64,000 bases of DNA from Profundicola chukchiensis (GTDB lineage: Bacteria; Bacteroidota; Bacteroidia; Flavobacteriales; Weeksellaceae). The stretch is taken from NCBI RefSeq assembly GCF_029664245.1, contig NZ_JANAIE010000007.1, forward strand, positions 62,001 through 126,000, written 5' to 3'. Shown here in pieces: positions 18,431-31,406 of the stretch (positions are counted from its first letter, which is position 1; every line of letters starts with the position of its first letter). A program made the position numbers and the translations under genes. The notes under the pieces were generated by a model, which saw only the letters and a list, made by a program, of their open reading frames with translations, did not search any database and was not told the DNA's origin.

Positions 18431-18504
18431 CGATCCGGACGGGATTCGAACCCGCGACCACTTGCGTGACAGGCAAGTATTCTAACCAGCTGAACTACCG
18501 GATC
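18431..18504 (-). tRNA. tRNA-Asp (GTC)
   Basis: A 74-base cloverleaf on the minus strand: acceptor GATCCGG paired with CCGGATC, discriminator G, D-arm AGTTCAGCTGGTTAGA, anticodon loop CTGTCAC (GTC), T-arm GGGTTCGAATCCC. CCA is not encoded. Identical to the copy at 18835-18908. Confidence 0.97.
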
Positions 18505-18834: not shown

Positions 18835-18908
18835 CGATCCGGACGGGATTCGAACCCGCGACCACTTGCGTGACAGGCAAGTATTCTAACCAGCTGAACT
18901 ACCGGATC
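18835..18908 (-). tRNA. tRNA-Asp (GTC), second copy
   Basis: Base-for-base identical to the 18431-18504 gene over 74 bases, anticodon GTC, no encoded CCA. It is a separate unit with its own promoter and terminator rather than part of one tRNA transcript. Confidence 0.97.
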
Positions 18909-28700: not shown

Positions 28701-29546
28701 ATGGGAAAAATAAACTGGAAGGAGGTCGAAGGTTTCGACTTTACAGATATTACGTATAAAAAATGTGATGGAGTAGCACGTATTGCCTTTAATCGTCCGG
28801 AAGTAAGAAACGCTTTCCGTCCTAAAACTACCTCTGAATTATTGAGAGCATTTCATGATGCCCAAGAAGATACATCTGTAGGAGTGGTTTTATTAAGTTC
28901 AGAAGGACCATCGCCAAAAGATGGAGGTTGGGCTTTTTGTAGTGGAGGAGATCAAGCCGCTCGAGGTAAAGAAGGATATGTTGGTGAAGATGGTTATCAT
29001 AGACTGAATATCCTAGAGGTTCAGCGTTTGATTAGATTTATGCCGAAGGCAGTTATTTGTGTTGTCAATGGATGGGCAGTAGGAGGAGGACATAGTTTAC
29101 ACGTAGTTTGTGATATGACTTTAGCTAGTAAAGAACATGCTATTTTTAAGCAAACGGATGCTGATGTAACGAGCTTTGATGGAGGTTATGGATCTGCTTA
29201 TTTAGCAAAAATGGTTGGTCAGAAAAAAGCGAGAGAAATATTCTTTTTAGGTAGAAATTATTCTGCTCAAGAAGCTTATGAAATGGGAATGGTAAATGCT
29301 GTAGTTCCTCATGATGAATTAGAAGAAACTGCTTTTGAATGGGCTCAAGAAGTCTTAGCTAAATCACCAATTTCAATTAAAATGTTGAAGTTTGCTATGA
29401 ACCTAACAGATGATGGTATGGTAGGACAACAAGTTTTTGCTGGAGAAGCTACAAGATTAGCTTACATGACAGATGAAGCAGTGGAAGGAAGAAACGCATT
29501 TTTAGAAAAACGTAAGCCTAATTTTGAGAAAAAATGGATTCCATAG
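28701..29546 (+). CDS. menB: 1,4-dihydroxy-2-naphthoyl-CoA synthase
   Basis: 281 residues, crotonase fold. It cyclises o-succinylbenzoyl-CoA in menaquinone synthesis. The oxyanion-hole segment is WAFCSGGDQAARG, the second is VNGWAVGGGHSLH, and the catalytic segment is QTDADVTSFDGGYGS. The Asp in QTDAD marks the type II enzyme that carries its own carboxylate, unlike the bicarbonate-dependent type I enzyme with Gly there. Full length with the C-terminal KKWIP tail. No other men genes are in the window. Confidence 0.97.
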   Translation: MGKINWKEVEGFDFTDITYKKCDGVARIAFNRPEVRNAFRPKTTSELLRAFHDAQEDTSVGVVLLSSEGPSPKDGGWAFCSGGDQAARGKEGYVGEDGYHRLNILEVQRLIRFMPKAVICVVNGWAVGGGHSLHVVCDMTLASKEHAIFKQTDADVTSFDGGYGSAYLAKMVGQKKAREIFFLGRNYSAQEAYEMGMVNAVVPHDELEETAFEWAQEVLAKSPISIKMLKFAMNLTDDGMVGQQVFAGEATRLAYMTDEAVEGRNAFLEKRKPNFEKKWIP

Positions 29547-29716
29547 ACCTTAAAAATTGAATCTTATAATTAAATAACTGTTTTGCTAACTGTTAATAAG
29601 TTGTGTTGAGTAAAAGAATTTTTATTTTAATCAACTGTATATCATTTAATTAATATTTATTAACAATTGTTTATAAATGATGTTGATAAGTGGTTTAAAT
29701 CTTTGAGCAACAATTA

Positions 29717-29748
29717 TTTGTAGGAATCAAATTCTTGATCTATATTTG
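29717..29748 (+). promoter_or_regulatory. Strong consensus promoter with no gene behind it
   Basis: TTTG, 20-base spacer, TATATTTG. This is one of the best matches in the window, yet no reading frame follows for more than 500 bases; a strong terminator lies 380 bases downstream. Confidence 0.7.
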
Positions 29749-29753
29749 TTATA

Positions 29754-30177
29754 CAATCAATTCAAGATATGACTTGATTGCAGAGGAGTTCTTAGACATA
29801 CATTTTGTTAAAACAAAATACCAAATAATTTTCGAGCATATGATTTTTTTAAATCTTGCGCTCAGTAATTCAAATGAGTGGAGTTAGAAAACTAACAAGT
29901 TTTAATTTCGAGTTGAATTTAATTATCGTCATCAATTAGTTTTGATAGAAATAATACAAAACGAATTCAGCAATCTCACACTAGGTTTGTAGTATAAAAG
30001 GAAAATTGAATTTTATTTAAACATCTTTTTTATAGCATTTAATCAAGTTTGTAATTAATGTAAGAAGCGATATACTCAGAAGAAAATTATTTATTCTATG
30101 ACTAAGTAACAATTCTATAATGAAAGCCTCATAACTGCGTACGATGTACAACGTTAGGAGGCTTTCTCATTTTATTT
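29754..30177 (+). ncRNA. Candidate non-coding RNA of about 400 nt, family not recognised
   Basis: The segment runs from the predicted start of the 29717-29748 promoter to the terminator at 30122-30177. No frame of useful length exists; every ATG is soon followed by a stop. Several local hairpins can be drawn: ATTTTGTT-AA-AACAAAAT, GAGC...GATTT-TTTT-AAATC...GCTC, TTAG-AAAA-CTAA, and GTTTTG...CAAAAC. It lacks the marks of tmRNA (no TPsiC arm) and RNase P RNA. The alternative is a long 3' untranslated region of menB, which has no terminator of its own. Direct sequence evidence is for promoter, terminator and lack of coding; RNA function is inference. Confidence 0.5.
30122..30177 (+). terminator. 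Strong terminator of the candidate RNA
   Basis: GAAAGCCTC / GAGGCTTTC outer stem (9 bp) with further pairing inside (TAAC/GTTA, GTAC/GTAC), then TCATTTTATTT. The tail is T-rich only on the plus strand. Confidence 0.85.
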
Positions 30178-30266
30178 AAAATCTATATAAATCTTTCATT
30201 TTATAGGTGTTAATAAGTGAAATGTTACACAGAATTTTGTTAATTTGCATTCTTAAATTTTAATTC

Positions 30267-31406
30267 ATGGATTTTAAATTAACAGAAGAGCAGCAAATGA
30301 TTAAGCAAGCAGCTCGTGATTTTGCACAAACTGACTGCTTACCAGGCGTTATAGAAAGAGATGATCAACAGAAATTCCCTCAGGACCAAATCAAGAAAAT
30401 GGGTGAGTTAGGATTCATGGGGATGATGGTGAGCCCAGAATACGGTGGAAGTGGTATGGATACCTTGTCTTACGTATTGGCAATGGAGGAAATCTCTAAA
30501 ATTGACGCATCATGTTCAGTTGCTATGTCAGTAAATAACTCACTTGTTTGTTGGGGATTGGAGAAATTCGGTACCGAAGAACAAAAGCAGAAATATTTAA
30601 AACCATTAGCTTCAGGTGAGAAAATTGGAGCATTCTGTTTATCTGAGCCAGAAGCTGGTTCTGATGCTACTTCTCAAAGAACTACAGCAGAGGATAAGGG
30701 TGATTACTATTTATTAAACGGTACTAAAAACTGGATTACTAATGGTAACTCAGCTTCTATTTATTTAGTAATTGCACAAACAGATCCAGAAAAAGGACAC
30801 AGAGGAATCAATGCTTTAATCGTTGAGAAAGGTATGGATGGTTTCGTTGTGGGTAAAAAAGAGGATAAATTAGGAATTAGAGGTTCAGATACACATTCAT
30901 TAATGTTTACGGACGTTAAAGTTCCAAAAGAAAACAGAATTGGTGAGGATGGATTTGGATTCAAATTCGCAATGAAAACTTTATCTGGTGGACGAATTGG
31001 TATCGCTGCCCAAGCTTTAGGTATTGCTGCAGGAGCTTATGAATTAGCTTTAAAATATGCACAAGAAAGAAAAGCATTTGGTAAAGAAATCATGCGTCAC
31101 CAAGCTATCGCATTTAAATTAGCAGATATGCACACCGAAATTGAAGCAGCTAGAATGTTGGTTTACCGTGCCGCTTTAGATAAAGACAATGGAGAAAGTT
31201 TTGACTTGTCTAGTGCTATGGCTAAATTAAAAGCATCTCAAGTAGCTATGGACGTTACTGTTGAAGCTGTTCAAATTCACGGTGGTTATGGATACGTAAA
31301 AGAATACCACGTAGAAAGATTGATGCGTGATGCTAAAATTACACAGATCTACGAAGGAACTTCTGAAATTCAGAAAATTGTAATTTCTAGAGCTATCGCT
31401 GATTAA
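30267..31406 (+). CDS. Acyl-CoA dehydrogenase (short-chain/butyryl type)
   Basis: 379 residues, the standard length. FAD-dependent oxidation of acyl-CoA to enoyl-CoA. Visible are the N-terminal helical domain (LTEEQQMIKQAARDFAQ), FCLSEPEAGSDA and NGTKNWITNG in the beta domain, and RMLVYRAALDKD plus the catalytic-base region QIYEGTSEIQKIVISRA at the C-terminus. The Glu in YEGT is the usual base of short- and medium-chain enzymes. Chain length is not provable from sequence. The electron acceptor ETF is not encoded nearby. Monocistronic with a terminator. Confidence 0.94.
   Translation: MDFKLTEEQQMIKQAARDFAQTDCLPGVIERDDQQKFPQDQIKKMGELGFMGMMVSPEYGGSGMDTLSYVLAMEEISKIDASCSVAMSVNNSLVCWGLEKFGTEEQKQKYLKPLASGEKIGAFCLSEPEAGSDATSQRTTAEDKGDYYLLNGTKNWITNGNSASIYLVIAQTDPEKGHRGINALIVEKGMDGFVVGKKEDKLGIRGSDTHSLMFTDVKVPKENRIGEDGFGFKFAMKTLSGGRIGIAAQALGIAAGAYELALKYAQERKAFGKEIMRHQAIAFKLADMHTEIEAARMLVYRAALDKDNGESFDLSSAMAKLKASQVAMDVTVEAVQIHGGYGYVKEYHVERLMRDAKITQIYEGTSEIQKIVISRAIAD

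Follow-up and report, generated by a model that had tools for sequence, protein, structure and literature searches.

A candidate structured noncoding RNA gene downstream of menB in Profundicola chukchiensis and a second species of its genus

Structured RNAs that stand alone as genes are an already known kind of bacterial RNA. tmRNA and RNase P RNA, the latter marked by its P2/P4 pseudoknot order, are similar in length to the RNA proposed below, and the OLE, ROOL and GOLLD RNAs are generally longer. In the passages of PMC9723704 considered here, the RNAs Rfp1-89 of Flavobacterium psychrophilum are presented as independent small RNAs of intergenic regions with a median length of 176 bp, and one of them, Rfp18, is reported to be retained across the genus and to be required for protease expression. 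The same passages place the sigma-A -7 box, TAnnTTTG, at -12 to -5 (PMC9723704). We analysed a 64-kb stretch of P. chukchiensis DNA (hereafter the window) in which the interval separating menB from an acyl-CoA dehydrogenase gene very probably holds a real, conserved and structured RNA gene, as judged at the DNA level. On balance, and with less assurance, we lean towards the fuller interpretation that this is an independently transcribed structured ncRNA gene of ~420 nt, which two or more species of the genus would have inherited from a shared ancestor and which would act in trans as a regulator. No RNA at this place is described among the literature matches listed.

The gap measures 720 bp, as the initial annotation had stated, with the menB stop at 29546 and the dehydrogenase gene starting at 30267; the identities of both genes were checked and the names agree. 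The same annotation saw no reading frame between the promoter and the terminator. Taken literally this does not hold, given that a 50-aa frame with a TTG start (29735-29887) and a 44-aa antisense frame (30017-30151) lie in or over the gap, but neither is conserved outside the terminator: a tblastx comparison with the homologous gap of a related genome (G042, see below) gave E < 0.1 over the terminator alone and revealed no conserved frame. Elsewhere in the window, two pairs of frames with equal lengths (453 aa twice and 708 aa twice) attracted attention and were rejected as unrelated proteins. Along the window's contig (C87, 100-158 kb), the strand-corrected third-position G-C skew shifts gradually from positive values to negative ones, as near a replication terminus, and the last 18 kb have a lower G+C content.

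A candidate promoter of the sigma-A type of Bacteroidetes, composed of TTTG, a 20-bp spacer and TATATTTG, was located by pattern scan at 29717-29748 on the plus strand. The pattern TTTG-N20-TATATTTG occurs once in 64 kb (both strands) versus 0.03 on average across 30 Markov sequences, although it was fitted to this very site. The general form TTG-N18-21-TAnnTTTG has 15 matches in the window versus 7.3 (sd 3.3) expected, and the promoter match taken alone is therefore weak evidence. What had been called a near-perfect promoter is present, and a counterpart in G042 (TTG-N19-TATCTTTG) occupies the same place relative to the RNA. From the box position given in the cited part of PMC9723704, transcription is predicted to start near 29753. 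At the other end, a hairpin scan and the comparison with G042 identify a putative intrinsic terminator on the plus strand (30122-30177), formed by a hairpin (30122-30166) and a T-rich tail. This hairpin ranks second among 150 hairpin-plus-T sites in our own scan of both strands, in keeping with the earlier description of it as one of the strongest terminators in the window, and it is not among the sites listed by a simple terminator scanner. Between the two species, 37 of its 45 bases are identical and one of its 13 pairs has changed on both sides.

Three of the 148 family genomes in our collection belong to this genus: the window's own genome (G000), G018 and G042. We inspected the region that follows menB in nine related genomes. 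In G042, menB is followed by an element that includes the promoter, a 13-mer (GTTCTTAGACATA) identical at 13 of 13 bases and the terminator, and the blocks shared with G000 start ~110 bp after menB. The expected conservation in related genomes was thus found, in this one further species only. In G018 and seven other genomes, inspection by eye of the 900 bases that follow menB revealed none of the three features, and the 13-mer was not found at these menB loci when up to two mismatches were allowed. Fourfold-degenerate sites provide a measure of how far the two species have drifted apart. Such sites are identical between G000 and G042 in 19 of 107 cases for menB (0.18; chance 0.27) and in 45 of 132 cases for the dehydrogenase gene (0.34; chance 0.32). 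On this measure, unconstrained DNA is randomised between the two genomes, and therefore the shared blocks (promoter, 13-mer, terminator and the palindrome described below) are under selection. As far as this comparison extends, the promoter, the terminator and the internal fold are conserved as one unit.

The palindrome, TTATTAACA-NN-TGTTTATAA, lies outside the interval marked by the initial annotation, at 29657-29676, and is a candidate operator or activator site that we presumptively liken to Crp/Fnr-type sites. Its sequence, TTATNAACANNTGTTNATAA, occurs without mismatch at one place in G000 and one place in G042, both upstream of the RNA. Allowing one mismatch adds two further places in G042, and none was found in G018 with up to one mismatch. 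The distance between the palindrome centre and the -7 box is closely matched in the two species (74.5 bp for G000, 73.5 bp for G042), and the centre would lie ~86 bp upstream of the start if the start follows the rule for TAnnTTTG in the cited part of PMC9723704. This spacing suits a class-I-type activator, as far as position can suggest. Further box-like copies accompany the palindrome at 29591-29599 and 29681-29689 (minus strand). In both species, several TTATNNACA-like boxes besides the palindrome occur between menB and the promoter (29547-29700 in the window; 2338-2640 in locus L135 of G042).

The strongest competing explanation is that the interval represents a long menB 3' untranslated region, as had been offered from the start, or an RNA processed from the menB transcript. 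This possibility draws support from the position of menB, which precedes the element in the same orientation in both species and is the sole gene neighbour of the element common to G000 and G042, and from the simple scan, which lists no terminator between menB and the element. However, the element has its own promoter and a palindrome that are conserved where unconstrained DNA has been randomised, the shared blocks begin ~110 bp past menB, and menB occurs without the element in G018 and seven other genomes. We therefore view the menB 3'-region reading as weaker than that of a new RNA and as improbable overall, although read-through from menB could still add to the RNA.

If transcribed as predicted, the RNA would extend from 29756 to 30173 on the plus strand (418 nt as folded, with both ends predicted), and its homolog in G042 would occupy 2636-3093 of L135 (458 nt). 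The two RNAs were each folded on their own, and the resulting folds share an architecture. Both present, in order, P1, P2, P3, P4, P5, a variable part, P7/P8 and the terminator, and all coordinates given here are on the plus strand. P1 is a 5' hairpin (29758-29780) recovered in the independent folds with a mean pair probability of 0.57 in G000 and 0.95 in G042. P2 is a closing helix formed between 29782-29800, which holds the invariant 13-mer (29788-29800), and 30097-30116, a strand assigned from the folds and the pair comparison; among 13 positions followed, eight pairs are identical, one has a one-sided change and four are unpaired in one species. The P3 hairpin (29802-29819), located between the two closing helices, has two-sided changes in four of its seven pairs. 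Nested within P2 is a second long-range helix, P4, in which 29823-29833 pairs with 30082-30092 through exactly 11 pairs in both RNAs, five of them changed on both sides, one changed on one side and none lost. The P5 hairpin (29834-29863) has changed on both sides in four of the eight pairs formed in both species, and two more positions are paired in one species only. Finally, the P7/P8 hairpin domain (GTTGAATTT ... GAATTC, 29912-29971) has the same hairpin at the corresponding place in G042, and the P7 sequence is largely conserved.

A counterpart in G042 exists for 30 of 32 long-range pairs and 24 of 26 local pairs in G000, and either number was reached by none of 300 shuffled pairs. Because P2 is partly conserved in sequence, a second shuffle test was run in which P2 was fixed and the interior alone was shuffled (n=500). 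Under this scheme the long-range count (16) was reached in four of 500 cases, the local count (18) in none, and both together in none. Two-sided pair changes total 14 (P3, P4, P5 and the terminator), but these were counted, in two sequences, on pairs picked from each sequence's own fold and hence are not an independent test, whereas the position (shuffle) test is. Folding energy gives a more uneven picture. Without the terminator, the body of the G000 RNA is unremarkable (z -1.3, with 26 of 300 shuffles as good) and that of the G042 RNA is strong (z -6.0, with 0 of 300 as good). The whole G000 RNA reaches z -3.1, a value that probably owes much to the terminator given the modest score of the body without it.

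A further proposal is that the RNA works in trans as an antisense RNA against one specific target, and the one candidate is a NuoF-like gene in G042. In the G042 RNA, the 13-mer together with the 3' portion of P3 shows complementarity, in two collinear blocks of 14 and 11 bases, to this gene at its start codon and 5' region. The only other copy of GTTCTTAGACAT in G042 lies antisense across that start codon, with the second 11-base block nearby, and the predicted duplex has an energy of -33.4 kcal/mol, whereas 123 gene starts on the window's contig average -13.4 and reach -26.9 at the strongest. However, at least 25 bases in two such blocks arise once per 20 Mb of Markov sequence, such that ~0.25 occurrences are expected in G042, and one of 6,334 segments of real DNA pairs as strongly. 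Moreover, the gene was not found in G000 or G018 at E 1e-10, and the five other matches in G000, which allow up to one mismatch, all fail to mark a gene start. We consider this target quite unlikely and keep the NuoF-like gene as a lead only. The gene itself (around 1501 in locus L147 of G042) carries an N-terminal extension, and it is preceded by what we take to be a LuxR-type response regulator.

Two other explanations fare worse. The window terminator lies 100 bp before the dehydrogenase gene on the same strand, as it might if the element were a cis-acting leader (riboswitch or attenuator) whose terminator served as the expression platform, but this is very improbable because the gene 3' of the element in G042 is a convergent trpS, and the dehydrogenase gene lies elsewhere in G018 and G042 with only ~130-150 bp before it; the terminator sequence is also highly conserved, which speaks against the same reading. 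A cis leader would be expected to keep its place and orientation ahead of one particular gene, and this element does not. A promoter and terminator of its own, as expected of an independent trans-acting RNA, are present at the sequence level. (The model scores for the trpS call fall below the cut-off because the end of the locus cuts the protein.) A shared gene order around the dehydrogenase gene in G018 and G042 was considered and rejected, as its upstream neighbours differ. Equally hard to credit is a replication origin or plasmid-like control region with TTATNNACA as DnaA boxes and the RNA as a replication-linked transcript: the boxes resemble DnaA boxes and form the densest such cluster on the 158-kb contig (four in 300 bp versus at most two per 300 bp elsewhere), but they are not TTATCCACA, the strand-corrected third-position G-C skew on this one contig, read left to right across the locus, declines from a positive value to roughly zero where an origin would give the reverse trend, the palindrome is not found in G018 even when one mismatch is allowed, and nothing similar is present in the plasmid and phage collections apart from one 38-base plasmid match (E 0.005).

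The RNA does not correspond to a family for which models are available. At the gathering threshold, Rfam 15 (4,227 models) matched two tRNAs alone in the whole window, and a permissive covariance search of 29000-31000, of the type the initial annotation had proposed, reached 21.8 bits at best where the gathering score is 141; for the G042 homolog the best was 22.1 against 50. ARAGORN reported no tmRNA in the window, only two tRNA-Asp genes. For RNase P RNA, there is no Rfam match in the gap, and the long-range helices are nested rather than arranged in the P2/P4 pseudoknot order. The earlier statement that tmRNA and RNase P marks are lacking thus agrees with these searches. The two tRNA-Asp genes (18431-18504 and 18835-18908, minus strand) are 404 bases apart and identical in sequence.

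Searches for further representatives returned a very narrow distribution. With blastn, the whole RNA matched its own copy among the 148 family genomes at E 6.4e-253, the next matches (from 3.8e-4) were short and AT-rich, and the G042 homolog was not revealed; the 13-mer was not found with up to one mismatch in the 29 loci (L003-L031) that this search supplied. The terminator pattern with up to three mismatches occurs in two of 148 family genomes, G000 and G042, and in no viral contigs. A sequence-only model of the 5' part (R1) matched 80 of 148 genomes at E <= 0.5 under stricter filters, strongly in G000 (1.6e-21) and G042 (2.1e-18) and weakly in the other 78 (0.0047 to 0.5). A terminator model (R2) matched 13 of 395 genomes of the order at E <= 0.01, with its own copy at 1.5e-19 and the next, in G477, at 1.0e-5; this match proved to be an unrelated hairpin that follows a reading frame and was rejected. 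The R2 matches do not include G042, which was probably not drawn into the 395-genome set. Within 15 loci from the R2 search, the 13-mer (up to one mismatch) is present only in two, both the own copy. In a fixed-motif check of 35 loci (R1 matches, menB and trpS neighbourhoods, and others), the exact 13-mer is confined to copies of the two known RNAs, and three loci carry it with two mismatches. Among 80 dehydrogenase loci from named genomes it is exact in none and has one mismatch in one (L101). Inspection by eye of 1.5 kb behind trpS in G018 revealed no such element, and the plasmid and phage collections yielded nothing relevant, the phage comparison having been run with the window's copy and not that of G042.

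In summary, G018 gives no sign of the RNA in the menB region or in the terminator-pattern, R1, 13-mer and palindrome searches, and the RNA was not seen in the 145 other family genomes at the sensitivity used. These searches rest on two sequences and strict filters and may have missed relatives that have diverged further. To the extent of the genomes covered, the RNA is apparently restricted to two species of one genus. Therefore, the proposal of a new flavobacterial RNA is supported by comparison in its first part, but 'flavobacterial' is too broad. Given that no trace was found in G018, the RNA may be dispensable, replaced or diverged there.

Regulation in trans is, in our view, the likeliest mechanism, which we infer by exclusion; its transcription, regulator and targets we likewise infer from sequence. 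The dedicated promoter and intrinsic terminator would define the unit, as the comparison suggests. A helix with the invariant GUUCUUAGACAUA would close the molecule, a hairpin would branch off, and the second long-range helix would close a multi-branched core, all in keeping with the shared folds. A transcription factor that binds the palindrome ~86 bp upstream of the start might then switch the gene as a class-I-type activator or as a repressor. The RNA would subsequently act in trans by base-pairing with mRNAs, as a protein scaffold, or both. The invariant P2 strand is likeliest to be the working surface, because it has not drifted while the neighbouring helices have exchanged both strands. 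The 13-mer in it is nevertheless paired with the partly conserved 3' strand of P2, and so need not be a seed. More tentatively, we can envisage a new class of large structured bacterial RNA confined to one genus, in which nested long-range helices hold out an invariant strand to a partner, either protein or RNA, and whose expression is governed by a single dedicated operator that occurs once per genome.

If our preferred reading is right, this is a structured RNA gene that escapes both whole-length blastn and Rfam, because the fold and the control signals persist as the sequence itself is replaced. Such RNAs could be recovered in AT-rich Bacteroidota by reading along gene neighbours, in this case after menB, and the unique upstream palindrome offers a direct handle on the regulator of the RNA.

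How, then, does this RNA compare with described systems? Like 6S RNA, tmRNA and RNase P RNA, it is predicted to be structured and to stand alone, but no ARAGORN or Rfam match links it to them, and its apparent absence from G018 is unlike a housekeeping RNA. It resembles OLE, ROOL and GOLLD, as portrayed in the cited part of PMC12286853, as a stand-alone, large and multi-branched RNA, although it is smaller, has a very narrow distribution and has no Rfam match near threshold. With the Rfp RNAs of F. psychrophilum such as Rfp18, as described in the passages of PMC9723704 considered here, it shares the organization of an independent unit, a TAnnTTTG-type promoter, strong structure and a lack of coding potential; it is set apart from that description by its length of ~420 nt, compared with a median of 176 bp, and by its two long-range closing helices. 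We therefore regard it as a new RNA without an Rfam match that belongs to a familiar kind, the stand-alone structured RNAs of bacteria.
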